DNA of 64,000 nucleotides from Lolium rigidum (lineage: Eukaryota; Streptophyta; Magnoliopsida; Poales; Poaceae): contig NC_061510.1 of assembly GCF_022539505.1 (NCBI RefSeq), positions 399,386,249 to 399,450,248 of the forward strand. The letters are read 5' to 3'. The notes below the pieces were generated by a model. That model saw only the letters and a program-made list of their open reading frames with translations. It ran no database searches and was not told the DNA's origin. Positions within the stretch are counted from its first letter, which is position 1. Every line of letters begins with the position of its first letter. Shown in pieces: positions 11,400 through 45,571 of this stretch. Both the position numbers and the translations under genes were made by a program.

Positions 11400-12395
11400 T
11401 GTTGAAATATTGGACCTGTACTTAGTGGTCTATACTAGATTTTAGATTTTTCTATAAATCTCAAAGCCCATTTAGTGGTAGCCTTGTGAATTTGAGTTCA
11501 AGTTGGTGGCAGCTCACTAGGGAGTGGCAAGAGGTGGAAAGTTTAGTCCCACATGAAAAGTTGGGAGGAAGTTAGACCACCTTATAAGGTGGGTTGTTCC
11601 ACCACTAGTAAGTGAGTGAGAATAGGAGTGCTACACGCTCGCTCGTCTCGACTAGACTCGACACGTGCCGACGTGCGCCGCGCTCGCGGTGAGTGGATTG
11701 AGCCTCGAGCCGAGACTTTCCTTACTTTTTGCAGCTCAAGAAAATGAACAGAGTCCTAGATGGACGCGTCCCGAACCGTGGGCTATCTGTAACCGACTCG
11801 AAACGTGCGCAACGTGGGCGTGCCCCACGTTGCCTAGGGTTTCCTGCGCCTATATAATCTCCTGCCCAGCTACCGCAGAAACATATCTGATACACGAGTT
11901 AGGGTTTTGCCACCTCTCTCTGCTTGCGCCGCCATCGTAGCCTACTCCATCCCGCGCGCCGACGTGCATCGGCGAACGGGAGAGCAGGTCTCCGGAACCG
12001 CTCGTCCTTGCGATCCTGTACGGGAGAGGGTGATTTAGGTTTTTGGGAAGCGCTCTGCGCGACTGCTCAAGCTCTTCATCACGGGTCACCTTCCGTCCAA
12101 GTCGGGCGGTGCTGCCTACCGTCGTCTTCAACGCCGTCTACTTCGACCCGTCGTCCCTGTCGTCAACAATGTTACTGCTGCGACATCATCTGCTACACCT
12201 CCACCGCCACCTCCACCAGATCGGTACATGCGACATATCTCGATCTGTTTAGCGATGGATGCTTTACCGTTTGTGTTGCTGCTACTCATGTTGATTAATG
12301 CATCTAGTATGTTCGAGTTTCACATGTTAGTAGTTGCTGTCACCATATTTTATATTCTGGAATTAGTCATAGAAATTGTGCCTAATTATCCAACA
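11400..12395 (+). mobile_element. Candidate 5' LTR/leader of a Ty1/copia element
   Basis: Begins TGTTGAAATATTGGACC and possibly ends TTATCCAACA at 12395 (TGTTG...CAACA). It has a TATA-like CCTATATAATC at 11851 and the composition of a copia LTR plus leader, directly upstream of a copia gag in the same orientation. No initiator-Met primer-binding site was found after 12395 and no second LTR exists in the window, so the end is uncertain and the element is truncated. Confidence 0.55.
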
Positions 12396-13298
12396 ATCCA
12401 AAAACCTAAATGTAGGCAATTTCCTGAGTTAACAACGGTTGGTTTTGCTGATGCACTAAGGCCGGATATGTTTACCGGTGTGCACTTTAAGAGCTGGCAG
12501 GTTAAGGCCACGCTCTGGCTTACTCATCTGAAAGCGTTCGAAGTTAGTGATGGTTTACCTGAAGGAACTATATCTGACCAAGATCAGAACAAGTTCAAGG
12601 AAAACAGTACTCTCTTCGTCGGATGCGTTATGAGTATTCTTGCTGATCGTCTGTGTGATGTGTACATGCACATAACATATGGTAAAGAGCTCTGGGATGC
12701 ACTGAATACTAAATTCGGTGCAACCGATGCAGGCAGTGAACTGGACATCATGGAGAGCTTTTATAACACCAGGATGGTGAACAACCGTTCTGTAGTCAAA
12801 CAAGCTCATGAGATACAGTGTATTGCGAAAGGGCTTAAACTTCTTAAGTGTGCCTTACTTGACAAGTTTGTGGCTGGATGCATCATTGCTAAGTTGCCCC
12901 CTTCATGGAGGAATTTTGCCACAACTCTCAAACACAAGAGACAGAAGATATCAATTGAAAATCTGATAGCGTCTCTTGATGTTGAGGAGAAAGCTCGGGC
13001 TAAGGATACTACTGAGAAAGAAGAGGGTCAGTCTAGCGTCAACATGGAGCAGAAGAAACCCTACAACAAGAATAAAGGGAATAACAAGCCCTCCTTCAAT
13101 AAGCATATCAAGACTACAACCTTCAAGAAGAAGATGATAAACAAAGCAGATCTGAGCTGCTTTACCTGTAGAGAGACTGACCACTTTTCTAAGGACTATC
13201 CAGAGAGGGCACACGGCAAGAAGAAGGCGAGACAAGTTAACACGGTGACCGCTAGCAAAGTGAATATAGTGCGTGCGAATCAGCAACATGTAATATGA
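12396..13298 (+). CDS. Ty1/copia gag, element truncated after gag
   Basis: A gag polyprotein of the UBN2 / gag-polypeptide-of-copia family. In order it shows the N-terminal block FTGVHFKSWQVKATLWL, the middle helix region LWDALNTKFGATDAGSEL and YNTRMVNNRSVVKQAHEI, and the C-terminal LPPSWRNFATTLKHKR. A basic linker and a zinc knuckle CFTCRETDHFSKDY follow. The knuckle has lost its last ligand (Tyr instead of Cys in the CX2CX4HX4C pattern). The open frame starts at 12228, but the first 55 or so residues read through leader sequence, so the true start is probably near 12400 and may have lost its Met. Protease, integrase and RT are missing. Confidence 0.8.
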   Translation: MQKPKCRQFPELTTVGFADALRPDMFTGVHFKSWQVKATLWLTHLKAFEVSDGLPEGTISDQDQNKFKENSTLFVGCVMSILADRLCDVYMHITYGKELWDALNTKFGATDAGSELDIMESFYNTRMVNNRSVVKQAHEIQCIAKGLKLLKCALLDKFVAGCIIAKLPPSWRNFATTLKHKRQKISIENLIASLDVEEKARAKDTTEKEEGQSSVNMEQKKPYNKNKGNNKPSFNKHIKTTTFKKKMINKADLSCFTCRETDHFSKDYPERAHGKKKARQVNTVTASKVNIVRANQQHVI

Positions 13299-13807: not shown

Positions 13808-13813
13808 TATAAA
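13808..13813 (+). promoter_or_regulatory. Candidate TATA box of the phospholipase A1 gene
   Basis: TATAAA in the context CAGCTATAAACC, about 95 bp upstream of the ATG at 13903. It would put the transcription start near 13840, downstream of the alternative in-frame ATG at 13834. This favours the ATG at 13903 as the start. Confidence 0.5.
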
Positions 13814-13902: not shown

Positions 13903-14092
13903 ATGTCCGCCACCGCGGCTGTCGCGCCGCCACTCCGTCACAGCCGTCCGTCCCCGCTCAACCCAAACGTGACGGCAACCGCTACGACGGCCAGGCCCAG
14001 CTCCGTCAACACGCGGACGCACCTCGCCAACCTCGACCGCCTGCTTGTTCGGCCACCGCCGCTGCCGCTGCCGCTCCCGCTCCCACCCAAGA
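13903..14092 (+). pseudogene. Phospholipase A1 class I, segment 1 (N-terminus)
   Basis: First segment of a host acyl-hydrolase gene (the class that releases fatty acids from the sn-1 position of membrane lipids, in DAD1/DONGLE-type jasmonate or senescence pathways). Starting MSATAAVAPPLRHSRPSPLN, the 63 codons are rich in Ser, Thr, Arg and Pro and poor in acidic residues, as in a chloroplast transit peptide. The CDS is broken after 14092 by a gypsy element with TSD CAAGA (14088-14092). The frame resumes exactly at 21879. An in-frame ATG at 13834 would add 23 residues but lies at or upstream of the likely transcription start. Confidence 0.75.
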
Positions 14093-15196
14093 TGATGAGG
14101 ACATCCCTACCTCACTACTACCTCCGTCATTAACAAACGAAGATGAACCTGCTGTGAAGCTCAAGTCCAATGAAGTTCGGATTGGACCAATTACAAGAGC
14201 TCGTGCGAAGCTACTTAATCAACAGGTGAACTTGTTCCTAAACGATACTTTGATTGATGAGAACTTTATACTGCCTAAGTCCTATTACTTATGTATCATC
14301 AGGTATCAAGAGGAGACAAGCATCGCACGAGGAGAGGAGCAGCTGAACATGAAGACGGACGTCAAGAGGGCCGTGAAGCTGGACATGGAGCTGGACATGA
14401 AGATATCTCATGGACGCGCGAGGGAGGAGCGGGAGGAATGCGCGAGAGGAGAAGAAGAAGTCCAGGCCGGTCCAGAACCCGGTCTGACCGGCCACCTGAC
14501 CGGGCCGCCGGTCCTCGGCCCTGGCCGACCGGTCGTAAACCGGCCACCAACCGGAGGAAATTTATCGTACCGGAGCGAGACCGGAAACTTCGCAGTTTCC
14601 CGGTTTCCGCCCGGTCGACCGGACCCCGACCGGACCGCCCGGTCCACAGCCCGGTTGACCGGACCCCGACCGGATCGCCCGGTCCACAGCCCGGTCGACC
14701 GGATTCCAGACCGGACCAGTCCGAGTCTGTCTCGACCAGATCTATTCTGGGTCGGTTATTTTTGTATCTTTTCGACCAGAACTCGTCCCGGACACCTATA
14801 TAAGTGCCCAGGACGCCCCCTAGCTGCTTTAGACCACGTTTAAGATAAACCCTAGTTCTTAGTTGTTTGCTCTGCAAAACTATTGAATTCCCTACACCAT
14901 ATTGCTTGGATATTGTGTAGATCCCGTTTAAGTCTTGTGTGATCTCGCTGTTCCATTGGGAATTAGACGGTTGCAACTTACCGCTTCGTGGTCGGCGGCT
15001 ACGTGCGCAAGTGTGTGGAGTTGCGAATATCTTGCAGGGTTGAGAGCTGTTGCATCCGGCGACGAGGACCAATCGAGAGATCTCGTTGCGTCATACAAGT
15101 TATCATCCACTACATCGTCGTGTTTCTCCGCTGCCATCACCCCGTGATCATCATCACCACCGTTGCTTACCGAGAAGATCGGGCCACCCCATATCA
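14093..15196 (+). repeat. 5' LTR of the gypsy element
   Basis: A 1104-bp LTR, TGATGAGGACATCC...CCCCATATCA. It has a TATA box TATATAAG at 14797-14804 in CACCTATATAAGTGCCC and a GC-rich tandem array at 14612-14710. It matches the 3' LTR with only a few percent differences, clustered in the GC-rich part. Apparent frames here, including one fused to the phospholipase N-terminus, are LTR sequence. Confidence 0.95.
14612..14710 (+). repeat. 40-bp tandem repeat inside the LTR
   Basis: Two full 40-bp copies (14612-14651, 14652-14691) and a partial third, each starting CGGT(C/T)GACCGGACCCCGACC and ending GGTCCACAGCC. The array is rich in the palindromes ACCGGT and GGTCGACC. A diverged copy lies in the 3' LTR at about 21286-21385. 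Confidence 0.85.
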
Positions 15197-16137
15197 TCTT
15201 GGTATCGATTTCCAGTTTTCCTCGGTAAGCCATCCACAATCCACCCCATAGTTGAGTTGTGAGTGTTTTCCTATCCAGAAAAAGCCATAAAAAAAAAATT
15301 AGGGTTAGGGTTTGCCATAGCCTTAGATTGCACTAATTTCGAGTTTTAGTTGCTTTTTGTAGTTGTTTTTGCGTATCTTTATCTTTCTTCTAGTAGAATT
15401 GTTAGGGTTTGCGTTTCCCTATCATCTTCTGTCTAGTTTATTATAGTGTGTCAGTTTTGTTACTCCGAGTCCACATAGCGTACAGTGTGCTTGTTCCCAA
15501 CCATAGACACAGCCTATCGATATAAAGTGACTAGGAACTTCCCCATAAGAGACTAGTTTTACCGCTCGACAGGCTGCTCGTTAGGGTTTTGGTGCTTTGC
15601 AATTTCTGTTGGCCGTGTTATCAAGGAGTTGAGTCAAAAAAAAAAAAGCAAAAAGAGCTACATAGCTGCGTGTGTTATACAAAAAGAAAAATAAAAAAAA
15701 AAGAAAAGTGTTGTGCTAGTTGAATCAAGTGAAGGCCTAAGTTACTTTACTGCACCCGTAGTTGAGCAATCTTGTGCCTGTCTCATTGAGCTTTGCTAGC
15801 GTCTCTCTAGTGCATTGCAACTTTTCCCACATATAGTTGCATTGCCCCATTATATCGCCTTGTGTGAGTATCTTTGGTTGTCTACGGTCAGCGCTAGAGC
15901 TTGTTATTGGTGCAAATAGGTAGCCTACCTACAGCCCCACATATATCCTGCTTTGTCGTGTGATTGTTCTTATACCCTTGATATTCGCTTCGCTACATCC
16001 GTGCACTAGTTGTTACTACAAGTGGTAAGCAACACTAATTTACTTTGGAACGGTAAGATTTCCTTTTCTTATCAGTTTTGAGTGAGTTGTGAGAGTACCA
16101 CCATATATTTTTGATTTAGTGCACTAACCTACTAATC
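15197..16137 (+). other. Gypsy primer-binding region and untranslated leader
   Basis: Just inside the LTR is TCTTGGTATCGATTTCC, which looks like a weakened initiator-Met primer-binding site (TGGTATCAGAGC class). The 940-bp leader is AT-rich, with A-tracts near 15635-15705, and no coding frame was seen. Confidence 0.6.
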
Positions 16138-17340
16138 ATGTCTGCTAGTGATAATAAGATTGTTAACCAGGACAACAAGAATTCGGCAGATATCGTCACA
16201 TGGAGGGAGTATGAAGCTCTTCGTAACGAGATGCGACGTGAATTCCGCACTAAGGATGATGAGCTTAAAGATACAGTTGACGAGATCAAACGTACGCTGG
16301 ATGCTACTAATATCACCGTCACTCGGATTGGCTGATCAAATGACCGATATACAGCGCACTCTTGACGATATGCGCCTTACTATTGAGAATTTGACTATAC
16401 AACAACAACAAGACGATGATGAAGATCCCGAGCTTGAAGATGACGCACACAATGCTCGTGGTGCGCCTCATGGTCATCGTCCGCGTGGTCGGGCTCCACT
16501 TGGCCGTAATGGTCGTGGGCAAGATGAAGAAGATGGATTGGGTAAGCCCAAGTTTTCCATACCCAAGTTTGAAGGGGGAGCTGATGTTGAAGAATATCTC
16601 ACTTGGGAGCTCAAGATTGAGAAGTTATGGAGCTTACATCCCAACTACTCTGAAGATAAGAAGATCAAGCTTGCTTCTTCTGAATTTGATGGTTATGCAT
16701 TACGTTGGTGGGATTCTTTGATTCGTAACCGCGACGAAGATGGTGCACAACCTATCCGTACATGGCGTGCTATGAAGGAGGTTATGACTTCTCGTTTTGT
16801 GCCTACAAATTACATGCGGAATATATTTGATAAGCTAACACTATTGAGGCAAGGTGTGAAGACTGTACGTTGATGAGTACTACATGGAGATGGAGATGCT
16901 TATGCAGCGTGGTCGTGTCCGTGAGTCTCTAGAGATGACAATGCAGCGTTTTCTCAATGGATTGAAGTATGATGTTAAAGGCATTGTTCGTCATTACACC
17001 TACACCGATATGAATCAATTGTTACATCATGCAAGAGAAGCTGAATCACAGCTTGGCTGAAGAAGCAAAGGTTAAAGGACGTGCTACGGGAGCTGGGCGT
17101 TTTACACCCCGCGCGCCCTCTACGGCGCCGGCACCGTCGACGCGCTCCGTTCCTTACTCTACTCCGCCTAGCAAACCGGTCTCCAATGTATCTAATGCAA
17201 AGAAGTCCGAATCTGCGGCAAGTATGAGTGGTTCTAGTGTGTCTACAACGCGCAACCGCGATATGCTTTGCCATACATGTGGTGGCAAGGGTCACTTCAA
17301 GAGAGATTGTCCTAACCGCAAAGTCATGTTTATCAATGAG
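16138..17340 (+). pseudogene. Gypsy gag
   Basis: Capsid polyprotein starting MSASDNKIVNQDNKNSAD. A coiled-coil-like N-terminus (EYEALRNEMRREF, DEIKRTLDA) leads to the retrotransposon gag block (KPKFSIPKFEGGADVEEYL, EFDGYALRWWDSL, MTSRFVPTNYMRNIFDKL). A Ser/Pro-rich linker and a zinc knuckle CHTCGGKGHFKRDC at 17269-17310 follow, with all four ligands present. Frameshifts near 16320 and 16865 break the frame. Confidence 0.85.
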
Positions 17341-18330
17341 GACAATGAGTATGAGACTGGAGATGATGTTGATCCAAATGCTCCAGACGATGATGACTAT
17401 GACACTGATGGTGAAGATGCATATCCTTCTAATGCTCGTACCATTGTTGTGTCGCAGCGTGCTCTTAATGTGTTGCCTAGTGCATCTACTCAGCGCTGCA
17501 ATTTGTTCCAAACCAAAGCTTTGGTTGGTCCTGACAAGGCTTGCAAGGTCATTATTGATGGTGGGAGTTGCCGCAATTTAGCAAGCAAGGAGTTATGTAC
17601 CAAGCTGAAGTTGAAGTACCTACCGCACCCGCATCCATATTATATTCAGTGGTTGAGCGACAGTGGTGAGATGAAGGTAAACCATATGGTGCGTGTTGAG
17701 TTTGAGATTGGACCGTATAAGGATTGCATTGATTTTGATGTGGTTCCTATGACGGTTTGTCACCTCTTATTGGGTCGGCCTTGGCTCTATGACCGTTCGT
17801 GCAACACAATGGCCGCGCCAATACATATCACTTGGAGTACAAGGGCAAGAAAATTAACTTACAGCCTATGTCACCACAACAGATTGTCAATGAGTCTCGT
17901 CAGAAGATTGAAGTGAATTTGGAGGATGCACCTCTAGATAGGCGAGAGAATTGTAATGTCGTGAGTGATATAACGAAAAGTGAGAGAGTGAATTCCTTAG
18001 TTTCATTAGCCACCAAAGAAGACATGAGAGAATTTAGTGAGGATCCTACGGCCATGCCTCTTGTGCTTTTGTACAGGGGTACGGTTTTGGTTTCTAACGA
18101 CATGACCCCTCTTCCTCTTGGTGTTTCTAGTGTTTTGCAGGAATTCGGCGACGTGTTTCCGGAGGAGGTACCCGCAGGACTACCACCATTGCGAGGTATT
18201 GAGCATCAAATTGACTTGATTCCCGGAGCATCGCTGCCCAATAGGGCGCCATATCGCACTAATCCCGAAGAGACGAAGGAGATACGAAGCAAGTACAAGC
18301 GCTACTCGACAAAGGTTATATCCGCATAAG
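17341..18330 (+). pseudogene. Gypsy protease and linker to RT
   Basis: A retropepsin-like domain follows gag with VIIDGGSCRNLASKELC (about 17550-17600). This is the aspartate active-site region in the DGGS form common in this group, followed by HLLLGRPWLYDR at 17761. A frameshift near 17800 shifts into the linker encoded by 17799-18329 (LQEFGDVFPEEVPAGLPPLR, then the RT entry sequence HQIDLIPGASLPNRAPYR). Another frameshift near 18290 precedes RT. Confidence 0.8.
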
Positions 18331-18341
18331 CCTTAGTCCTT

Positions 18342-19225
18342 GTGATGTTCCTCGTTATTCTAGTTCCTAAGAAAGATGGTACTTGGCGTATGTGCGTAGA
18401 TTGTAGAGCTATAAACAACATTACTATTCGATATCGTCATCCTATTCCCCGTTTAGAGGATATGCTAGATGAATTGAGTGGTGCCGCTGTGTTCTCTAAA
18501 ATTGATTTGCGTAGTGGTTATCATCAAATTAGGATGAAAGAAGGGGATGAGTGGAAAACCGCCTTTAAAACAAAATTTGGTTTATATGAGTGGTTAGTAA
18601 TGCCTTTTGGGTTAACTAATGCACCTAGCACTTTCATGAGACTAATGAACCATGTTTTGCGTGAATTTATTGGCAAATTTGTGGTTGTATATTTTGATGA
18701 CATATTAATCTACAGCCGCTATGAATCTGATCATACTATACATATTCGACATGTTTTGCAAGTGTTGCGTGATAATAAACTCTATGGTAATCTTGAGAAG
18801 TGCACATTTTGCAAAGATAAGGTCATATTTCTGGGTTATGTTGTCTCTAAGCATGGAGTAGAAGTAGATGTGTCTAAAATTGAAGCTATTCAAAATTGGC
18901 CTACTCCCATGAATGTGAGTCAAGTTAGAAGTTTTCATGGTCTAGCCGGGTTTTATCGCCGTTTTGTGCCCAATTTTTCTACTATTGCTGCACCTTTGAA
19001 TGAATTGACTAAAAAGGGTGTTGTCTTTGAGTGGGGCGTTGCCCAAGATCATGCTTTTGATGAACTGAAACGATTGTTAACTTCCGCACCGTTGCTTGCA
19101 CTTCCCGATTTCAATAAGCAATTTGAGATTGAATGTGATGCTAGTGGTATTGGAATTGGTGGTGTGTTGATGCAAGAGGGTCGCCCAATTGCATATTTTT
19201 CTCGAGAAATTATCTCGGTGCTAAG
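18342..19225 (+). pseudogene. Gypsy reverse transcriptase
   Basis: Ty3-type [60 protein letters not shown], and the catalytic YFDD box at 18690-18701. The thumb/connection follows ([32 protein letters not shown]) and the start of RNase H with [20 protein letters not shown]. This domain is intact over 290 codons, then a frameshift near 19225 moves the RNase H tail to another frame. Confidence 0.9.
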
Positions 19226-19480
19226 TTGAACTATCCTATATATGATAAAGAATTGTATGCTTTAATTAGAATTCTTGAGGTTTGGCAACATTATTTGTGG
19301 CCAAAAGAATTTATCATACATTCTGATCATGAAGCTTTAAAATACCTGAAAGCCCAATCTACTTTGCATAAGCGTCTAGCTAAGTGGGTTGAGTTCATTG
19401 AGTCTTTTCCATACATCATTAAACATAAGAAGGGAAAAGATAACATTGTTGCTCGATGCTCTATCTAGGAAGAATATGCT
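19226..19480 (+). pseudogene. Gypsy RNase H tail
   Basis: [20 protein letters not shown], then [16 protein letters not shown] and [19 protein letters not shown]. This is the C-terminal half of the Ty3 RNase H, with the conserved Glu (YDKEL) and Asp (HSDHEAL). A frameshift near 19455 falls just before the usual ADALSR motif, which reads ALSRK in the next frame. Confidence 0.85.
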
Positions 19481-20766
19481 ATTAACTCAACTTGATGTTA
19501 AAATTCCTGGTTTAGAGATACTATGTGATTTGTATGCTACTGATCATGATTTTGCTGAACCATATCGCTTATGTGCTCTTGGTAAAGCATGGGAAAAATA
19601 TCACATACATGATGGGTTCTTGTTTAGAGCTAACAAACTATGTGTTCCGGAATCGTCCGTGCGTTTGCTCTTATTGCGGGAATCACATGCTCGGAGGTTT
19701 GATGGGTCACTTTGGGCGTGAGAAGACGCTACTCATGCTAGCTGACCACTTTTATTGGCCAAAGATGAGGCGGGACGTGGATAGATATGTGAGGAGATGC
19801 ATTACTTGCAACAAGTCCAAGTCCAAGCTGAAGCCTCACGGTTTGTATACTCCGTTACCGGCACCTACTACACCTTGGGAGGATATTAGTATGGATTTTG
19901 TGTTGGGTTTGCCGCGTACTAAAAGAGGCCATGATTCTATATTTGTGGTAGTGGACAGATTTTCTAAAATGTCACACTTTATTGCCTGCCACAAAAGCGA
20001 CGATGCGTCGCATATTGCTAACCTCGTTTTTCGTGGAGATTGTTCGACTACATGGAGTCCCGAAGACTATTGTTTCTGATCGTGATGTGAAGTTCATGAG
20101 CTACTTCTGGAAGACACTTTGGGGAAAGCTGGGGACAAAGCTACTATTCAGTACTACTTGTCATCCTCAAACTGATGGTCAAACTGAGGTGGTGAATCGA
20201 ACCTTGTCACAACTGTTGAGATCCATGATCAAGAAGAACCTGAAGGAGTGGGAAGAGTGTTTGCCGCATGTGGAGTTTGCTTACAACAGGGCGGTACATT
20301 CTACCACGTAGCTATGTCCTTTTGAGGTGGTGTATGGTTTCAAACCCATTACTCCACTTGACTTGTTGCCTTTGCCCATACATGAGAGAGTTAATATGGA
20401 GGCATCCAAGAGGGCAGATTTTGTGCGTAAGATCCATGTGAAGACTAAAGAGTTGATCGAGAAGAAAGGCAAGAGCAATGCTGCAAGGATGAACAAGAAG
20501 CGCAAAGAGATGTTGTTCAAGCCCGGTGATTTGGTCTCGGGTACATTTTCGCAAGGATAGGTTCCCGAAGCTGCGGAAGTCTAAGTTGAAGCCGCGTGGT
20601 GCTGGTCCTTACAAAGTGCTTGCCAAGATCAATGATAATGCATACTCGATAGATCTTCCAGCTTGATGAGTTTGGTGTCGGTAATTCTTTCAATGTTGCT
20701 GATTTGACACCATATGACGGAGAAGACCTTGGAGCGTCGGGGTCGACGCCTTTTGAAGGGGGGAGA
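19481..20766 (+). pseudogene. Gypsy integrase and polypurine tract
   Basis: A zinc-binding HHCC region ([28 protein letters not shown]) is followed by the core with the DDE acidic residues: Asp in [12 protein letters not shown], Asp in [11 protein letters not shown], Glu in [13 protein letters not shown]. The C-terminus has VYGFKPITPLDLLPLP and [11 protein letters not shown], then [20 protein letters not shown] in another frame. Frameshifts lie near 19690, 20030, 20545 and 20660, and a TAG at 20309-20311. It ends in the polypurine tract at about 20752-20766. Confidence 0.85.
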
Positions 20767-21873
20767 TGATGAGGACATCCCTACCTCACTACTACCTCCG
20801 TCATTAACAAACGAAGATGAACCTCGTCGTGAAGCTCAAGTCCAATGAAGTTCGGATTGGACCAATTACAAGAGCTCGTGCGAAGCTACTTAATCAACAG
20901 GTGAACTTGTTCCTAAACGATACTTTGATTGATGAGAACTTTATACTGCCTAAGTCCTATTACTTATGTATCATCAGGTATCAAGAGGAGACAAGCATCG
21001 CACGAGGAGAGGAGCAGCTGAACATGAAGACGGACGTCAAGAGGGCCGTGAAGCTGGACATGGAGCTGGACATGAAGATATCTCATGGACGCGCGAGGGA
21101 GGAGCGGGAGGAATGCGCGAGAGGAGAAGAAGAAGTCCAGGCCGGTCCGGAACCCGGTCCGACCGGCCACCCGACCGGCCCGCCCGGTCCCCGGCCCGGT
21201 CGACCGGTCGTAAACCGGCCACCAACCGGAGGAAATTTATCGTACCGGAGCGAGACCGGAAACTTCGCAGTTTTCCCGGTTTCCGACCGGTCGACCGGAC
21301 CCCCGACCGGACCGTCCGGTCCACAGCCCGGTTGACCGGACCACAGACCGGATCGCCCGGTCCACAGCCCGGTCGACCGGATTCCAGACCGGACCAGTCC
21401 GAGTCTGTCTCGACCAGATCTATTCTGGGTCGGTTATTTTTGTATCTTTTCGACCAGAACTCGTCCCGGACACCTATATAAGTGCCCGGGACGCCCCCTA
21501 GCTGCTTTAGACCACGTTTAAGATAAACCCTAGTTCTTAGTTGTTTGCTCGCAAAACTATTGAATTCCCTACACCATATTGCTTGGATATTGTGTAGATC
21601 CTGTTTAAGTCTTGTGTGATCTGCTGTTCCATTGGGAATTAGACGGTTGCAACTTACCGCTTCGTGGTCGGCGGCTACGTGCGCAAGTGTGTGGAGTTGC
21701 GAATATCTTGCAGTGGTTGAGAGCTGTTGCATCTGGCGACAGGGACCAATCGAGAGATCTCGTTGCGTCATACAAGTTATCATCCACTACATCGTCGTGT
21801 TTCTCCGCTGCCATCACCCCGTGATCATCATCACCACCGTTGCTTACTGAGAAGATCAGGCCACCCCATATCA
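20767..21873 (+). repeat. 3' LTR of the gypsy element
   Basis: A 1107-bp LTR, TGATGAGGACATCC...CCCCATATCA, followed by TSD CAAGA at 21874. It has a TATA box TATATAAG near 21475. In one frame its first 200 bp encode GPITRARAKLLNQQVNLFLN, a motif usually found at the C-terminus of grass gypsy Pol. The pol frame of the ancestor therefore probably ran into the LTR. Confidence 0.95.
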
Positions 21874-21878
21874 CAAGA

Positions 21879-22989
21879 AGACACCGGCCGACGAGCCGCG
21901 GGTCGAAGTGGATGCAATCCCCGACGATGATCGCAGCGGCCGGGGCGGGCTCCTCAACGCGCTGAATCTTTCCACGTTCCTGCCGTTCACGCGCAAGCCA
22001 GCCGCGGACGAGATGTCCCCGCGAAGCCTGGCGCACATGCAGCGACTCCTGACGCTCTCGCCGCGGCCGTCGCCGAGGGGCTCCATCGCCGCCGAATGGC
22101 GACGATACCACGGCGAGGGCGCGTGGGCGGGCCTCGTCGACCCGCTCGACCAGAACCTCCGCCGCGAGGTCCTCCGGTACGGCGACTTCGTGCAGGCCGC
22201 GTACGCCGCGTTCCACTCCATGCCGTCGTCGGCGACGCACAGCCACTGCCAGCACCGCACCCTCGTGCTCCCGGATCGGTCGTACCGGGCGACGCGTAGC
22301 CTGTTCGCCACGTCGTCCCTGTCCATCCCGCCGTGGGCGCAGCGGCAGTCGGCGCCCAAGTGGCTGACGCAGCGCTCCAGCTTCGTTGGCTACGTCGCAG
22401 TCTGCGACAACGAACGCGAGGTGCAGCGTATGGGCCGCCGTGACATCGTCGTCGTGCTGCGCGGCACCGCTACGTGCCCTGAGTGGGCCGAGAACCTCCG
22501 CACCGGCCTCGTGCCGGTGTCGGACGACGGCGACGTGTCACCGCAGCAGCACGCGCCGAAGGTGGCGAAGGGGTTCCTCAGCCTGTACAAGACGGCCGGC
22601 GACCACGTACCCAGCCTGTCCGACGCCATTGTGGAGGAGGTGAGGCGCCTCGTGGAGGTGTACAAGGGCGAGGAGCTCAGCGTCACGGTGGTGGGCCACA
22701 GCCTCGGCGCGTCGCTGGCCGTCCTAGCCGCCGACGAGCTCAGCGCGTGCCTGGCCGCCGACGCGGAGAGTAAATGCACCGCCGCAGATGGTCACCGCCC
22801 GCCACCCATCGCCGTGGTGTCCTTCGGCGGCCCGAAGACCGGCAACCGCGCGTTCGCGGACCGGCTGCGGCACGAGCGCGGGGTGAACGTGCTGCGCGTG
22901 GTGAACGCTGGTGACGTGGTGACGCGAGTTCCCGGGCTCGCGACGCCGACGACGATCGCCGAGGGGTACGTGCACGCGGGTGGCGCGGA
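21879..22989 (+). pseudogene. Phospholipase A1 class I, segment 2 (catalytic domain)
   Basis: Main body of the interrupted lipase, residues 64-434 if both insertions are removed. It shows the class I PLA1 N-terminal signature (WRRYHGEGAWAGLVDPLD, LRREVLRYGDFVQAAY), APKWLTQRSSFVGYVAVCDN and DIVVVLRGTATCPEWAENLR. The lipase GXSXG box GHSLG follows, with the nucleophile Ser at residue 338 (codon 22700-22702), then FGGPKTGNRAFADRLR and NAGDVVTRVPG with the likely catalytic Asp 409. It is very GC-rich, as many grass single-exon genes are. No stop or frameshift was seen. It ends at the TSD GCGGA (22985-22989), where the copia element begins. The open frame reads on 48 codons into the copia LTR to 23134. 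An in-frame ATG near 22012 could start a product lacking the transit peptide. Confidence 0.92.
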
Positions 22990-23416
22990 TGTTAGCATTA
23001 AGCACGATCTGTGCATGTTCCGTCGGCAAGACATAGTGCATAAACGTATTCGATTCGTGTACGGTGTAGTGTCCGTACAGGTCTTGTTTTGTAAACCGAC
23101 TAGGACTAGTGCTCAAGCCTATGCGTGTATATAAGTGCACCCAAGGCCTTGTAATCTTGTATCAAGTCAGAAGAAATAAAGCAAGACAACTACGAGGCTC
23201 GATATGAGCCTCTAGCAATCAAATCGATTTCGCGTGCGTGTGTTTCGTGAGCCAGCTTCGAGGCGTACGTGTATCGGCGACTTGGTGTGTGCTTGCTCGT
23301 CTCGCCGGATTGCCATCTCGCCGGAATAGCTCAGAAGCAGTTGAGCTTGCGTATACGTGCGCGTACAGCCGGAAAGTACTCGGCGAGTTCACGCGACGTA
23401 GGGACCAAGTCCAACA
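22990..23416 (+). repeat. 5' LTR of the copia element
   Basis: 427 bp, TGTTAGCATTAAGC...CAAGTCCAACA, with TATA-like GTGTATATAAGTGC near 23125-23138. I found no difference from the 3' copy. Confidence 0.95.
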
Positions 23417-23418
23417 AT

Positions 23419-23430
23419 TGGTATCAGAGC
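23419..23430 (+). other. Copia primer-binding site (initiator Met tRNA)
   Basis: TGGTATCAGAGC three bases after the 5' LTR is the standard plant copia primer-binding site, complementary to the 3' end of initiator tRNA-Met. Confidence 0.9.
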
Positions 23431-23473
23431 TCAAGGTTATTCGTCCGTGATTTTCTGAAAGTACTAGAAGATC

Positions 23474-25891
23474 ATGGCGATAGTGAAGGCGGGCGAGAAC
23501 TCGGTGGTGGAGACGGTGGGGCCGGCTTTGTATCCGCGCCTCGATCGCAAGGACTACGGGCTTTGGGCCCTCAACATGGAGGTGGCTATGGAAGCTGCGG
23601 AGATCTGGGAGGCCGTTGATCCAGGCGGCGATGAATACGTCAAGGGAGGCGCGAAGTACACGAAGGATCGCAAAGCACTAACGGCGATCTATTCCGTCGT
23701 GCCGAAGGACGTGATGCAGCACCTCGTCGGAAAGAAGTCGGCGAAGGATGCATGGGAGACGATCAAGACCTTACACCAAGGTCATGCCCGCGTGAGGGAA
23801 GCGCATCTTCAAACTTTGACGAAAAGTTATGAAGATCTGAAGATGGAGGAAAGCGAGACGGTTGATCAGTTTGCCGCCCGTTTCGTCACCCTCATCAACG
23901 CAATCAGGGGTTATGGCGAGAGGTTGGATGAGGTCAAGAACGTCAGAAGGTTCTTGCGTGCCGCACCGGCGCGCCATATGCAGATCGTTACATCGATCGA
24001 ACAATGTCTCGACCTGAATACACTGACGGTTGAGGATCTCGTCGGAAGGTTCAAGGCCCATGACGAGAGAATCCGGCTTAGCTTCGATGATCCGGAGCAG
24101 AGTGAGCACTTGATGCTCACGAAGCAGCAGTGGATGACTCTTTCAAAAGAAAAGCAAGGAGGGTCCACGAGCCGCAGCAACGGGAAGGAGAAGCAGCGCC
24201 CGGCGAAAAAGTACATCGCCGAGCAGGAGGAAGATGACGAAGCTCCGCCGCGGAGGAAGTTTGACATAAAGAAAGTAAGGTGTCATAACTGCGGGAAGCT
24301 CGGTCACTTCAAGGCTGATTGCCAGAAAGCATCGAAGGATAGGGCTCTCCTGGCCCAGGAAGAAGATGATGGACCAATGATGTTGATGCTCGAAGTATGC
24401 GAGCAGGAGGACACGGAGGAATTAACTCCTCCAGCGCAGGCTCCGGAGATGGTGGACCACATGGATCAGCAGCGGAGTGCCCCGTTCCCATGTGAAGAGG
24501 CTTCGGAACTTGTTCATGGTGATCTATGCGTTGAAATATCACCTGCAACCCCGTCCGGCAATAAGTACTTCATGCTTGTGGTGGATGATTACAGTCAATA
24601 CATGTGGATTGTGTTGCTGAAAAGTAAGGATCAAGCCCTACAAGAATTCATGAAGATCAAAGAAGCTGGAGAGTTCAAGGCGCAGGTGAAAATAAAGGTC
24701 TTATGCATAGATCAGGAGGGTGAGCTGCATCAAACCGTGGTGGCCATGGCACGGAGCATGATGAAGAGTAAAGGCTTGCCAGGAAAATTTTGGGGTGAGG
24801 CCGTCAATACGGCTGTCTACTTGCTGAACAGGGCGCCAACTAGGAGTGTAGCTGGTATAACGCCGTACGAAGCATGGTACGGATGGAAGCCCTCGGTTGA
24901 TCATCTTCGCACTTTTGGGTGCGTGGCGCATGTCAAGACGGTGTCCGGCCATAATAGCAAATTGGTGAACCGGAGTACTCCAATGATCATGACCGGTTAT
25001 GACGGCTCGAAGACATACCGTTTGTGCAATCCCTATACCAATAAGGTGGTTGTGACGAGCGACGTAGTCTTCGAGGAAGACAAATCATGGAATTGGAGCT
25101 CCAACGAAACGGTATATCTGACTTTTCACGTTACTTACGGTAATTGTGAGCATGCAGAAAATATTGATCAACCAGGCGCAAGAGTAAATCCTGTAGCAAA
25201 GGCCACGTCGTGGCCAGAAGATATAGGAAGCGGAGCGTTAGACCGCGAGCTTCCAGCAACTAGAGCTCGGTCAGGGGAATCAGCAGCGATCATCATTTGT
25301 TCTGGTAATCCAGACGCGAGCGAACCTGGTGGGCTACGCACGTACGGCGCGTCGTGTCCAAGAAGGCTCTGTAGCCTAGAAACCACGCTACAAGGAAGCA
25401 ACCCTTGTGCTGTTACCAGATGGCTAAAAGAGAAAATCAAGCCATCAGGAAGTGCTTCACGTGAAGAAAAAATCACAGAAGCAGGAGATGTCGTTGGTGG
25501 TTCAATGCTACCACGTAGCCCACAGGCGGGCGGACCAAGTGCAGCAGCTCCAGTCCGTCAACAAAAAGAAGCTCCAGAAAGTGAAGGGCTTAGCAGCCCA
25601 GAAAGCGGCCACGATGGGGGCAGCAGTGTTGTTGTTCTAACCGAGCCAGAAGAGACTAATCCAGAAGCTGAAGGTCGAACTAGTGCATCGCTAGAAGGAG
25701 TCAAGCCAGTTTCATGCTACATGGAGCTAGCTAGGAAGTTTAATCAGCATAGTTTGGCTGGCTCTGGATATAGGTGCCTAGGCCAAAAGCAGCGGCCAGA
25801 ATCATATGAGCTAGTTACTTTTGCTATATCTTTCGAGAAATACTTCGACAAGGTAGTAAGCAAAAGGAGAATAGAAGGAAAACCAAGGTGA
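23474..25891 (+). CDS. Copia gag-integrase fusion frame, 805 codons
   Basis: One uninterrupted frame starting MAIVKAGENSVVETVG. Residues about 15-230 are a copia gag of the UBN2 class (DYGLWALNMEVAMEAAEIWE, KDAWETIKTLHQGHARVREA, MQIVTSIEQCLDLNTLTVED). A complete zinc knuckle CHNCGKLGHFKADC is near residue 270. Residues about 345-540 are integrase pieces (ELVHGDLCVEI, YFMLVVDDYSQYMWIVLL, then TVVAMARSMMKSKGLPGKFW, APTRSVAGITPYEAWYG, VTSDVVFEEDKSWNW). The DNG...QNG stretch carrying the second Asp and the Glu of DDE is deleted between IDQEGE and LHQTVV. Protease, RT and RNase H are absent. Residues about 545-805 are a Ser/Glu/Pro-rich tail I do not recognise. Gag may be functional; integrase cannot be. 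Confidence 0.9.
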   Translation: MAIVKAGENSVVETVGPALYPRLDRKDYGLWALNMEVAMEAAEIWEAVDPGGDEYVKGGAKYTKDRKALTAIYSVVPKDVMQHLVGKKSAKDAWETIKTLHQGHARVREAHLQTLTKSYEDLKMEESETVDQFAARFVTLINAIRGYGERLDEVKNVRRFLRAAPARHMQIVTSIEQCLDLNTLTVEDLVGRFKAHDERIRLSFDDPEQSEHLMLTKQQWMTLSKEKQGGSTSRSNGKEKQRPAKKYIAEQEEDDEAPPRRKFDIKKVRCHNCGKLGHFKADCQKASKDRALLAQEEDDGPMMLMLEVCEQEDTEELTPPAQAPEMVDHMDQQRSAPFPCEEASELVHGDLCVEISPATPSGNKYFMLVVDDYSQYMWIVLLKSKDQALQEFMKIKEAGEFKAQVKIKVLCIDQEGELHQTVVAMARSMMKSKGLPGKFWGEAVNTAVYLLNRAPTRSVAGITPYEAWYGWKPSVDHLRTFGCVAHVKTVSGHNSKLVNRSTPMIMTGYDGSKTYRLCNPYTNKVVVTSDVVFEEDKSWNWSSNETVYLTFHVTYGNCEHAENIDQPGARVNPVAKATSWPEDIGSGALDRELPATRARSGESAAIIICSGNPDASEPGGLRTYGASCPRRLCSLETTLQGSNPCAVTRWLKEKIKPSGSASREEKITEAGDVVGGSMLPRSPQAGGPSAAAPVRQQKEAPESEGLSSPESGHDGGSSVVVLTEPEETNPEAEGRTSASLEGVKPVSCYMELARKFNQHSLAGSGYRCLGQKQRPESYELVTFAISFEKYFDKVVSKRRIEGKPR

Positions 25892-26129
25892 CGAGCACCG
25901 ATGAACAGGTGAAGACCGAAGACGCGGACAAGGATGGTAAGCGTCAAGCCATGGAGAAGCCGGCGAAGGTAAAGTCGGTGACATGGAAGACACAAAGAGC
26001 GGCGAAAGCAATGTCGATGATGATGGCCGAAACGGTGAAAGAAATACCAAGGGTAACACCTACGCAAAGTAAGTGGCGTATTTGGGACCCTGGTCGAGAT
26101 GAAGTGCACGTCGTGCTTAGGGGGGTGAT
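25892..26129 (+). other. Copia 3' internal region
   Basis: A second frame (about 25888-26129, running on into the LTR) encodes a Lys/Glu-rich segment ending WRIWDPGRDEVHVVLRG before the polypurine tract. I cannot assign it. It may be the end of the polyprotein after a frameshift or a captured fragment. Confidence 0.4.
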
Positions 26130-26556
26130 TGTTAGCATTAAGCACGATCTGTGCATGTTCCGTCGGCAAGACATAGTGCATAAACGTATTCGATTCGTGT
26201 ACGGTGTAGTGTCCGTACAGGTCTTGTTTTGTAAACCGACTAGGACTAGTGCTCAAGCCTATGCGTGTATATAAGTGCACCCAAGGCCTTGTAATCTTGT
26301 ATCAAGTCAGAAGAAATAAAGCAAGACAACTACGAGGCTCGATATGAGCCTCTAGCAATCAAATCGATTTCGCGTGCGTGTGTTTCGTGAGCCAGCTTCG
26401 AGGCGTACGTGTATCGGCGACTTGGTGTGTGCTTGCTCGTCTCGCCGGATTGCCATCTCGCCGGAATAGCTCAGAAGCAGTTGAGCTTGCGTATACGTGC
26501 GCGTACAGCCGGAAAGTACTCGGCGAGTTCACGCGACGTAGGGACCAAGTCCAACA
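26130..26556 (+). repeat. 3' LTR of the copia element
   Basis: 427 bp, same ends as the 5' LTR, followed by TSD GCGGA and then phospholipase coding sequence in frame. Confidence 0.95.
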
Positions 26557-26561
26557 GCGGA

Positions 26562-26847
26562 GCTGAGGCTGGACAGCCGCGACTCGCCGTGCCTGCGCCC
26601 AGACGCCGGCCCGGCATGCTGCCACGACCTGGAGGCGTACCTGCACCTGCTGGACGGGTTCGCGGGGTCCGGCCGGCCGTTCCGCGCCGACGCGAGCCGC
26701 AGCGTGGCAGGGCTGCTGGCGTTCCAACGGTCCAACGTGAAACGCGCCTACTTGGAGCGCGCGAGGGTGCTCGGGTTCGAGCCGGCCGCGGCCACGGCTA
26801 GCGGCTCCGGCGACGGGCAGTACGGATACCTGGCCAGCCCCACGTGA
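26562..26847 (+). pseudogene. Phospholipase A1 class I, segment 3 (C-terminus)
   Basis: The last 95 codons of the lipase, completing the codon split at 22989. It reads [16 protein letters not shown], then [17 protein letters not shown], which holds the likely catalytic His (residue 455 of the joined frame). It ends with [20 protein letters not shown] and a short Gly/Ser tail at TGA 26845-26847. The usual class I C-terminus is complete. Because it is downstream of the copia element, any product made from the upstream segments lacks the catalytic His. No stop or frameshift lies within the segment. Confidence 0.92.
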
Positions 26848-31830: not shown

Positions 31831-33194
31831 TGAAAGGACCATATGTCACCTAGAGAAGGGGGTGTGAATAGGTGCTATATCAAATTTTAATTCTTTTTCA
31901 ATTTAGGCTTGACACAGAGGTAAATTTTCTAGATATGCAATTATGTGAATTTACATATATGACAAGATGCAAGCAAACAACACACAATACAAGGTACAAG
32001 TAGTAAAGTGCTGTAAAAGGATAGAGGTAACCGAGGTGGAGCACGCGGAGACACGAGGGTATGAGTCCCGTAGTTCCTTCTTTGTAAAGGGAAGTACGTC
32101 TATGTTGGAGGGGTGTTGTGCCACAAAGCAAACCAACGCCATGAAGGCCTCAACCTATTCTCCGGTGAGCAACGCCACAAAGGCCTAGCTCACGCTCCAC
32201 TAAGCGGTTGCCTCAAGGTCGCAACCGTCACCTTTACACAAAGGTTGGGGCACACATCAACAACCCAATTGGAGGCTCCCAACAACCGACGATGGAGCTT
32301 TTACAACACAAAGCAAGCTCTGAGGGCGAAGTCTCACAAAGCTAGGGTTTCACAACATGGATCTCCTACAAAAAAGTGTGATACTCAAATCCCTTTGGTG
32401 GAAGTGTAGATCTAAGGTTCCTCCCTTGATTCCCAAGAGATCAACAAGATTGAGTGGCTAGGGAGGGAGATCTTGGAGTTTTGAGCTTTGGAACAATTGA
32501 GGAGAGAGAGTTGAATACGCAACCTCTCCTTGGAGAAGAAGGGTCACTTTTATACTCCCACGATATAAGTGACCGTTGCAGAACCTTTTTGTCTGGTGCC
32601 TCTGAGCTAATGTCTGGAGTCTCCGTTGTAAGTCCCGAAACTCCGGTGTAGTTTTCGGCCTAGTCCCCGGACCCCCATGCCGTAAGTGAGGCCCACTCGC
32701 CAGCCTCACAATCCTGAAACTCTGGAAACTTGTCCGGAGTCTTCGGCCAGGGGAGGCCAGAGTATCCGGAGTGCAATGAACGAGAACTTGATTAAAGTCC
32801 CCGGTCGAGTATCAAGACCCACATACATAGAGTGAGGCACCTTGGCAGGCTTCTCGAAGTTGGTCAGTCCGGAGACTTGTCCGGAGTCTCCGGCCTGGAT
32901 GACCAGAGTCTCCGGTGTACTTGTCCGGAGTCTCCGGACTGAAGATCTGCACTTGGTTCTTTTGTTGTGGGTCAACTCCACTACCATTTCCATCCAACCC
33001 CCGATCTTTTCTTAAACATTTTAGACACTTCACCACAAAGCTTCAATGCACATCTTGTTCGTTTCAATTTTTAGGGGTCAGCCACCGTGACAAGCTTAAC
33101 ACATATATCATCTATGATCCATAAGCACATGGTTAAAGATCTCTATGTTGACAGCAATCACACAAAACCATGTTAGGAGGTAAATTCCCTTTCA
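31831..33194 (-). repeat. 3' LTR of the Sirevirus-like element
   Basis: A 1364-bp LTR, paired with 44247-45571. It carries several copies of the palindrome CCGGAGTCTCCGG and near variants between about 32710 and 32945. Many substitutions and indels against the other LTR show an old insertion. Confidence 0.88.
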
Positions 33195-41056: not shown

Positions 41057-43196
41057 TGATGGCGTGTGCTCGTCGTATGCAGAAACGATGTTGGGGAACC
41101 CCAAGAGGAAGGTATGATGAGCACAACAACAAGTTTTCCCTCAATACGAAACCAGGTTTAATCGACCAGTAGGAGAAAGGCGTGACTTCTGAAGGTGTTG
41201 CTGGCTGACTAGTGGCAGGGCGCACTACCAGCGTCAGCAACAACGTGGAACCTGCACACAACACAACCAAAGTACTTTGCCCCAACTTACAGTGAGGTTG
41301 TCAATCTCACCGGTTTGCTGAACACAAAGGATATATCTCTCTAATTTTGTTGTTGTTTTACATTAAGCCTAACCAGTGAAAAAAATATAAAAAACATCAA
41401 CTTGGAAAGTAAGCATGGAATAAAATAAGCAACAGAAATAACAGCTATAATAGAAACTATTTTTGTGTGTTTTAGATATAAAGATAACTATAAAGTAAAC
41501 TAATTTTTTTGTGTTTTTGATATAATAAAGCAAACAAAACAAAGTAAAGTAAACTAAGCAAACTATAACAAAGTAAAGAGATTGGGGATGAGAGACTCCC
41601 CTTGCAGAAATGCTCTTTCTCCCCAGCAACGACGCCAGTAAACAGCTTGATGGAGTGTGCTCGTTGTATGCAGACATGCCGTTGGGGAACCCCAAGAGGA
41701 AGGTGTGATGAGCATAGCAGCATGTTTTTCCTGAGTACGAAACCAAGGTTTAATCGACTAGTAGGAGAAATGTGTGACGTCTGAAGGTGTTGCTGGCTGA
41801 CTAGTGGCAGGGCGCACTACCGACGTCAACAACAACGTGGAACCTGCACACAACACAACCAAAGTACTTTGCCCCAACTTACAGTGAGGTTGTCAATCTC
41901 ACTGGTTTGCTGAACACGAAGGATTAGACGTATCGAATGGAAGGAGATGTTTGCAGAAAATAAACAGAACATGATTGCAGTTGAATTTATAAGTAAAGGA
42001 AATAGGACCGGGGTCCACAGGTCACTAGAGGTGTCTCTCCATAAAGATAATAGCATGTTGGGTGAACAAATTACAGCTGGACAATTGACAGAATATCGAT
42101 CGATACATGACAAGATGATTACTATGATAATTTGGTATTGGGCATTACAACATAATACATAGATTGTAATCCAACTGCGTCTATGAATAATAATCCACCT
42201 CCAGGTTAGCGTCCGCACCCCTTCCAGTATAAAGTTGCAAGCAACAGACTATCTATTAAGTAATGTGTGTAAAGTAAACAATATAATTACCCTCGGATAA
42301 AACATTGTTATTTTATCCCTAGTAGCAACAACACATCTACAATCTTAGAAGTTATAAAGCCACCCTCCCAGAAAACTAGAGGCATTAACCTACTATCAAG
42401 CATAAATACCCCCTCTTGGAGTCACAAGTGTTCACTTGGCCAGAGTTTTTACTAGCAACGGAGAGCATGCAAGATCACAAATAACATATGACATGAATAT
42501 ATAATCAATCTCAACATAGTATTCAATATTCATCGGATCCCAGCAAACCAAACATATAGGACAACATAAAGATGATCTTGATCATGTAGGGTAGCTCACA
42601 AGATCGATACATGAAGAACAAAGTTGAGAAGACGACCATCTAGCTACTGCTATGGACCCATAGTCCATGAATGAACTACTCATGCATCACTTCGGAGGCG
42701 GGCATGGTGATGTAGATGCCTCCGGCGACGATTTCCCCCTCCGGCAGGGTGCCGGGAAGAGCTTCAGAACCCCCCGAGATGGGTTCTGCAATGGCGGCCA
42801 CGGCGGAACTTTTCGTGGATGGAGGATCGGGTATCCAGGGTTTTCCCGAGAAGATGTATAAATAGGCGGAGGAATTAGTTCGGTTGGGTGCCTGCTGGGC
42901 CCAGACCCCCCTAGGTGCGGGCCAGGTCTAGGCCGCCCTGTGGCGCCTCTCCTACACCCCTCTGGACTTCGTCTTCATCTCGGTAAAATATTGACTTCGG
43001 CTTTTGTTTCGTTCCATTCCGAGAATATTTCTTGTACAACTTTTTTGAAATACAAAAACAGCAGAAAGCAGGGAACTGGCATTGTGGCATCTCGTTAATC
43101 ATGTAAAAGTGCAACGAAGTGTAAGCAAAATATATATGAATTGGTATAAAACAAGCATGGAGCATCAAAAATTATAGATACGTTTGAGACGTATCA
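41057..43196 (-). mobile_element. Internally deleted Sabrina-like gypsy element in the Sirevirus gag
   Basis: Perfect TSD GCCTT at 41052-41056 and 43197-43201. It retains a complete 5' LTR (41648-43196, 1549 bp, TGATACGTCTC...CCATCA on the minus strand), a primer-binding site (minus TGGCGTCGTTGCTGGGGAG, 41620-41640), 315 bp of leader and the terminal 276 bp of the 3' LTR (41057-41332). All coding sequence is deleted. Removing it restores the gag frame. Confidence 0.9.
41648..43196 (-). repeat. 5' LTR of the deleted Sabrina-like element
   Basis: 1549 bp, TG...CA. Its last 276 bp are repeated at 41057-41332 up to the word GAACAC(A/G)AAGGAT. It is clearly related along its length to the LTR at 691-2286. 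Confidence 0.85.
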
Positions 43197-44246: not shown

Positions 44247-45571
44247 TGAAAGGATCGTATGTCACCTAGATGGGGGGGTGAATAGGTGCTATATAAATTT
44301 TTATTTCCTTTTCAATTTAGGCTTGACACAAACATAAATTCTCTAGATATGCAACTATGTGAATTTACCTATATGACAAGATGCAAGCAAACAATACACA
44401 ATACAAGATACAAGTAGTAAAGTGCGGTAAAATGATAGATGTAACCGGGGTGGAGCACGCGGAGACACGAGGGTACGATTCCCGTAGTTCCTTCCTTGTA
44501 AAGGGAAGTACATATACATTGGAGTGGTGTTGTGCCACGAAGGCCAACTAACGCCACGAATGCCTCACCCTATTCTCCGGTGAGCAACGCCACAAAGGCC
44601 TAGCTCACGCTCCACTAAGCGGTTGCCTTAAGGTCGCAACCATCACCTTTAAACAAAGGTCGGGGCACACATCCACAACTCAATTGGAGGCTCCCAACAA
44701 CCGAGCACGGAGCTTTTACAACACAAAGCAAGATCCGAGGGCGACTTCTCACAAATCTAGGGTTTCCCCAACATGAATCTCCTACAAACAAGTGGATACT
44801 CAAATCCCTTTGGTGGAAGTATAGATCTAGGGTTCCTCCCTTGATTCCCAAGAGATCAACAAGATTGAGTGGCTAGGGAGGGAGATCTTGGAGTTTTGAG
44901 CTTTGGAACAATGGAGGAGAGAGAGTTGAAGCAGCAACCTCTCCTTGGAGAAGAAGAGTCCCTTTTATAATCCCACAACATAAGTGACCGTTGCAGAACC
45001 TTTTGGTCCGGAGTCTCCGGGCTAATGTCCGGAGTCTCCGGTGTAAGTTCGGAAACTCCGGTGTAGTTTTCGTCCTAGTCCCCGGACCCCCAGAAACTCT
45101 GGAAACTTGTCCGGAGTCTCCGGCCAGGGGAGACCGGAGTCTCCGGAGTGTAATGACCGAGAACTTGAGAAAAGTCCCTGGCCGAGAATCCGGACCCCCA
45201 TACATATTGTGAGACACCTTGGCTGGCTTCTCGAAGTTGGTTAGTCCGGAGACTTGCCCGGAGTCTCCGGCCCGGATGACCGGAGTCTCCGGTGTACTTG
45301 TCCGGAGTCTACAGACTGAAGATCTGCACTTGGTTTTTTTGTTGTGGGTCTTCTCCACCACCATTTCCAGCCAACCCCCGATATTTTCTTGAGCATTGCA
45401 GACACTTCACCACAAAGCTGCAACGCACATCTTGTTCGTTTCACTTTTTAGGGATCGGCCACCGTGACAAGCTTAACACATATATCATCTATGATCCATA
45501 AGCACATGGTTAAAGATCTCTATCTTAACAACAAACACGCAAAACCATGTTAGGAGGGAAATGCCCTTTCA
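44247..45571 (-). repeat. 5' LTR of the Sirevirus-like element
   Basis: A 1325-bp LTR. CCGGAGTCTCCGG-type palindromes are dense between about 45005 and 45315, better preserved than in the 3' LTR. Confidence 0.88.

Follow-up and report, generated by a model that had tools for sequence, protein, structure and literature searches.

Class I phospholipases A1 (PLA1s) of plants have been reported as involved in jasmonate production (PMC8895301). Introns are reported to be absent from group I PLA1 genes, with a single exception in Arabidopsis, and three PLA1 genes of rice carry the name Ibeta (PMC3281901). DAD1 is listed as Ibeta1 (PMC3281901), and DGL (DONGLE) as an Ialpha enzyme (PMC11546879). In blackgrass, a related grass, young insertions of long terminal repeat (LTR) elements are reported to be common, with one peak at ~0.1 million years (Myr) (PMC10108218). 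The window analyzed here, a stretch of 64,000 nucleotides from Lolium rigidum (contig NC_061510.1), holds a PLA1 gene whose coding exon is interrupted by two LTR elements, called element 1 and element 2 in their 5′ to 3′ order. We consider it very probable that this is a single-exon, plastid-type PLA1-Ibeta gene of a Loliinae grass that was inactivated by two successive LTR insertions in sense orientation. The case is ordinary as a gene loss through retrotransposon insertion, but well preserved, and it offers a clean, datable example of stepwise loss within a coding exon. Should they segregate in ryegrass, the two insertions would provide naturally occurring null alleles for a lipase of plastid type. 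Among the papers listed by a literature search, none deals, by title or by the start of the abstract, with a PLA1 gene split by retrotransposons or with this locus.

Structure of the Split Gene

The PLA1 frame lies on the plus strand in three pieces (Table 1), which join into 1,587 bp (528 codons and a TGA) as one open frame when one copy of each target-site duplication (TSD) is kept. The original prediction had described two retrotransposon insertions in the exon of a class I PLA1, and the TSDs, TG...CA ends and LTR pairs of both elements were indeed found. Its coordinates and its TSDs, CAAGA and GCGGA, hold base for base at both joints, and rejoining the pieces at single TSD copies again gave a 528-codon frame free of stops and frameshifts. 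The choice of joint matters: keeping a doubled TSD1, a doubled TSD2, or both produces 10, 2, and 9 internal stops, respectively (three of three such joins), and the frame is likewise broken in two alternative joins with a start 5 bases further on. When the joined protein is aligned with its relatives, both joints are free of gaps. Apart from the two LTR elements, the gene is intronless, since the joined frame needs no further intron.

Both elements share the orientation of the gene. Element 1 lies after residue 63, with codon 64 split behind its first base, and element 2 lies inside codon 434, between the catalytic residues Asp409 and His455. The coding frame is thereby broken after 14092 and again after 22989. 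Because the N-terminus, the part with the catalytic Ser and Asp, and the part with the catalytic His are separated by the two elements, an active full-length enzyme would not be expected from this allele.

Protein Family and Relatives

A Pfam scan of the joined protein gave Lipase_3 (PF01764, E 9.4e-29) as the sole family at E <= 0.001. Residues 131-482 or 133-484 align with the solved plant PLA1 structures 7x0d, 2yij, and 7x0c (E 1e-47 to 1.8e-41), and Ser338 (in GHSLG), Asp409, and His455 stand in register with the Ser, Asp, and His of 7x0d and 2yij, which bears out the complete catalytic set that had been predicted. A protein search with the joined frame gave 887 matches at E <= 1e-3. In the 120 listed, E is at most 7.1e-141 and the best local alignment covers 47-100% of the query, so the likeness to PLA1 is not due to chance; many of these 120 matches bear the name "phospholipase A1-Ibeta2, chloroplastic." By its sequence, the split gene is a class 3 lipase and a plant class I PLA1, belonging to the Ibeta group by the names of its matches. 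It resembles plant class I PLA1s of that group in the Lipase_3 domain, the GHSLG motif, the catalytic residues in register, the intronless frame, and the full-length alignment to grass orthologues, and it differs from them in being interrupted twice. By length, our guess for its counterpart among the three rice Ibeta genes would be Ibeta3 (535 aa). The N-terminus is common to the window protein and its close orthologues, and some of the relatives are labelled chloroplastic.

The gene had also been placed in the family of the jasmonate-pathway enzymes DAD1 and DONGLE. Membership in class I stands, but the gene is Ibeta by the names of its matches whereas DGL is Ialpha, and its connection to the jasmonate pathway would be one of family only. 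In a search with the middle open reading frame (ORF), one DAD1-named protein occurs among the 120 listed of 679 matches (Cocos P0153, 61% identity over 78% of the query).

Among the matches listed, the closest to the joined protein are P0001 (a JGI record, 95% identity), P0002 (93%), and Festuca glaucescens P0003 (93%), followed by proteins from Alopecurus (90%), Avena (88%), and Triticum (82%). Comparison with grass PLA1 proteins, as the original prediction had proposed, thus gives 93-95% identity to the nearest relatives across both joints. Taken piece by piece (1, 2, and 3), the identity is 97%, 96%, and 99% to P0001 and 93%, 93%, and 98% to F. glaucescens P0003, compared with 42-47%, 61-64%, and 63-69% to five grass paralogue rows. 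Each piece alone is closest to the same orthologues, so the pieces do not come from different paralogues, a possibility that had been raised earlier.

The tree and the residue counts given below draw on 25 of the 120 listed matches, 19 of which were treated as orthologues; the counts exclude the five paralogue rows and Typha, and ten listed matches that belong to the same clade by identity (68-79%; P0014, P0019, and P0021-P0028) stand outside both. In the tree (26 rows), the window protein is sister to P0001 and P0002 together (support 98/96), the next and weaker fork is F. glaucescens P0003 (87/74), and the five grass paralogue rows are set apart. F. glaucescens P0003 is a full-length copy of the lipase, and the insertions are therefore not common to all Loliinae. 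A record with the same element 2 junction was sought with the middle ORF and its LTR-derived tail, and no match above 91% query coverage was present among the 120 listed of 679, in which 90%-identity clusters can hide close alleles. A second F. glaucescens copy, P0016 (451 aa), has 75 residues missing between two EVRR repeats and carries 18 unique residues, 6 of them at otherwise invariant sites. This copy would represent either decay by another route (repeat-mediated deletion) or a faulty gene model (a false intron).

Order and Age of the Insertions

Over 1,102 aligned sites, the two LTRs of element 1 are separated by 7 indels and 24 substitutions (17 transitions and 7 transversions), which corresponds to a K of 0.022. 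Ten of the 24 substitutions are clustered in one 29-column stretch (~14497-14525) within GACCGG-rich repeats; leaving this stretch out lowers the divergence to 0.013. With the rate that was applied to blackgrass (1.3e-8 per site and year; PMC10108218), these two values would make element 1 ~0.85 and ~0.50 Myr old, respectively. The LTRs of element 2 are identical at 427 of 427 bases, which would place its insertion within the last ~0.27 Myr (95%). If the elements were of equal age, the probability of finding no difference in 427 bases would be 9e-5, or 0.004 with the 10-change cluster omitted. Because the LTR divergences are unequal, element 1 was probably inserted before element 2, unless its LTRs differed from the start. 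The original prediction, which spoke of a recent loss without separating the two insertions, needs correcting here: the estimated ages differ, and the gene would already have been split by element 1 when element 2 arrived. In the proposed course of events, a gypsy-like element would have inserted just downstream of the N-terminal region, several hundred thousand years before present, and a shortened element with a Copia-type gag would have followed more recently in the C-terminal part.

Preservation of the Exon and Alternative Explanations

Compared with the 19 orthologues, the window protein has three residues of its own (A9P, R61P, and S183T), one of them at an otherwise invariant site. The count considers sites at which at least 15 of the 19 orthologues have a letter, so a two-residue LP insert (residues 53-54) is not among the three. 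Counted in this way, F. glaucescens P0003 has 9 such residues, Alopecurus and Avena have 11 each, P0001 has 0, and P0002 has 2; the last two are each other's nearest rows, which lowers their values. Some of the three residues may predate the insertions. A random substitution yields a residue unseen in the orthologues with a probability of 0.56. All of these comparisons were made at the protein level. The few unseen residues indicate that constraint on the PLA1 exon was lost recently. The original prediction had likewise argued for a recent loss, from an exon without decay. The recency stands, with the scarcity of missense changes as its better evidence, but the missing stops and frameshifts are weak evidence by themselves, and a strong inference from them was rejected: by chance, no stop or indel is expected in 6-32% of neutral 0.8-Myr copies (at assumed indel-to-substitution ratios of 0.15-0.05).

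Several points weigh against inactivation by two successive insertions. With equal mutation rates in exon and LTR, the exon should have gathered 17 neutral changes after element 1 arrived, and the number seen is too low. With the full divergence of element 1, 9.7 unseen residues are expected against the three observed, and the joint probability with no stop and no indel is 0.0016; with the LTR cluster left out, 5.8 are expected and the joint probability rises to 0.048. If the exon mutates at half the LTR rate, again an assumed value, 4.9 unseen residues are expected (P 0.10), or 2.9 (P 0.36) without the LTR cluster. Thus, either the LTRs overstate the age of element 1, or constraint on the rest of the gene persisted for a while; unless mutation is slower in exons, the age of element 1 read from its LTRs alone appears somewhat high for the exon. 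In addition, no protein named for Lolium, the host genus, is found among the 120 listed matches of the joined-frame search (of 887) or of the middle-ORF search (of 679), in both of which 90% clustering may hide one.

An improbable explanation that would supply such constraint is that element 1 re-wired the gene. Its insertion would have stripped off the N-terminal region with the plastid signal and placed a 420-residue lipase (Met109-528) under an LTR promoter; the product would have moved from the plastid to the cytosol, and selection would have acted on it up to its destruction by element 2, an event of the past few hundred thousand years. A TATATAA in the 3′ LTR of element 1 (at 21475) fits this proposal, as do the first in-frame ATG at 22013 (Met109), which precedes the structure-aligned residues 131-482, and a number of missense changes lower than the age of element 1 predicts. 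Two of the three window-unique residues and the LP insert also fall within the 63 residues upstream of element 1, but this N-terminal excess is not significant (two of three, vs. 48 of 238 for the 19 orthologues; Fisher p 0.11) and was rejected. Moreover, out-of-frame ATGs at 21912 and 21927 lie ahead of Met109, and a younger element 1 accounts for the same facts.

It is less probable still that both elements are spliced out like introns and that the gene still works. The joined frame is intact, as this would demand, and spliced retrotransposon insertions occur in maize waxy alleles. However, the elements lie in sense orientation, so that transcripts would be expected to terminate in the elements' LTRs, and it is unlikely that two stretches of 7.8 and 3.6 kb would be excised with base precision. 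The possibility that the pieces belong to several PLA1 paralogues or form an assembly chimera can practically be dismissed, as no point was found in its favor, the TSDs match at both joints, and each piece is nearest to the same orthologues, with 42-69% identity to the five paralogue rows.

Features of the Two LTR Elements

Element 1 resembles Ty3/gypsy elements in its LTRs, TSD, gag, reverse transcriptase (RT), RNase H, integrase zinc domain, and Tf2-1-like SH3 domain, with the RT preceding the latter two domains (gypsy order). It differs from an intact Ty3/gypsy element in its broken coding region, which is split into plus-strand ORFs of at most 300 aa, and in the integrase core, which was not found in the 11 plus-strand ORFs scanned. 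GACCGG-rich repeats occupy 14475-14700 and 21150-21380 in its LTRs.

Element 2 resembles Copia elements in its copia-type gag, CCHC knuckle, SH3-like domain, and the TGGTATCAGAGC primer-site motif just 3′ of its first LTR; its primer-binding site presumably matches the initiator methionine tRNA. It differs from a full Copia element in that its interior measures only 2.7 kb and that no RT or RNase H was found in the two frames scanned (the 805-codon ORF and a 128-residue ORF behind it). Element 2 would be classed as a shortened, Copia-like non-autonomous LTR element. Over the first 330 residues of its frame, element 2 shares 98% identity with a Lolium multiflorum protein, and three more L. multiflorum proteins show 89-91% identity over 98% of this segment. 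Together with the placement of the lipase near Festuca, this points to Lolium or a close relative as the probable host. One L. multiflorum relative of the frame carries PF07727, which we take to be the copia-type RT.

Table 1. Features of the split PLA1 gene and of the two inserted LTR elements (positions in the window).
Feature	Position	Strand	Remarks
TATAAA upstream of PLA1 start	13808-13813		Motif seen in the sequence
PLA1 piece 1	13903..14092	+	Residues 1-63 plus base 1 of codon 64; N-terminal region, with a transit peptide by family only
TSD1 CAAGA, left copy	14088..14092	+	Repeat flanking element 1
Element 1, LTR retrotransposon, Ty3/gypsy-like, 7,781 bp	14093..21873	+	TG...CA ends, LTR pair, 5-bp TSD; coding region broken
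Element 1 5′ LTR, 1,104 bp	14093..15196	+	
Element 1 gag ORF	16136..16873	+	Retrotrans_gag PF03732
Element 1 ORF with CCHC zinc knuckle	17014..17916	+	Domain scan
Element 1 RT and first part of RNase H	18330..19229	+	Domain scan
Element 1 remainder of RNase H, other frame	19145..19468	+	Domain scan
Element 1 integrase zinc-binding domain ORF	19516..20079	+	Domain scan
Element 1 ORF, Tf2-1-like SH3 domain	20493..20666	+	Domain scan
Element 1 3′ LTR, 1,107 bp	20767..21873	+	TATATAA at 21475
TSD1 CAAGA, right copy	21874..21878	+	Repeat flanking element 1
PLA1 piece 2	21879..22989	+	Bases 2-3 of codon 64 through residue 433, plus bases 1-2 of codon 434; Ser338, Asp409
TSD2 GCGGA, left copy	22985..22989	+	Repeat flanking element 2
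Element 2, LTR element, Copia-type gag, 3,567 bp	22990..26556	+	TG...CA ends, LTR pair, 5-bp TSD
Element 2 5′ LTR, 427 bp	22990..23416	+	
Element 2 primer-binding site region (ATTGGTATCAGAGC...)	23417..23440	+	
Element 2 ORF, 805 aa	23474..25891	+	Copia-type gag (Retrotran_gag_2), CCHC knuckle, SH3-like domain
Element 2 3′ LTR	26130..26556	+	Identical to 5′ LTR
TSD2 GCGGA, right copy	26557..26561	+	Repeat flanking element 2
PLA1 piece 3	26562..26847	+	Base 3 of codon 434 through residue 528, then the TGA stop; His455

Other Repeats in the Window

A copia-type gag ORF of 419 codons is located at 12039-13298 and ends ~600 bases 5′ of the lipase start codon. An Rfam scan of the window gave 0 matches. 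A third young LTR element lies on the minus strand at 47260-49487, with identical 174-bp LTRs, the TSD GTCAA, and the TGGTATCAGAGC motif (minus strand) adjoining 49313. Its GC-rich interior of 1.9 kb holds minus-strand ORFs of 436, 299, 245, and 244 aa without a Pfam match, and this element may carry captured host sequence. The direct repeats at 31831-33194 and 44247-45571 are ~90-91% identical and probably represent an older element, either as its LTRs or as two copies of it. Another pair of repeats, at 541-1837 and 41498-42783, shows 76% identity over ~1.3 kb.

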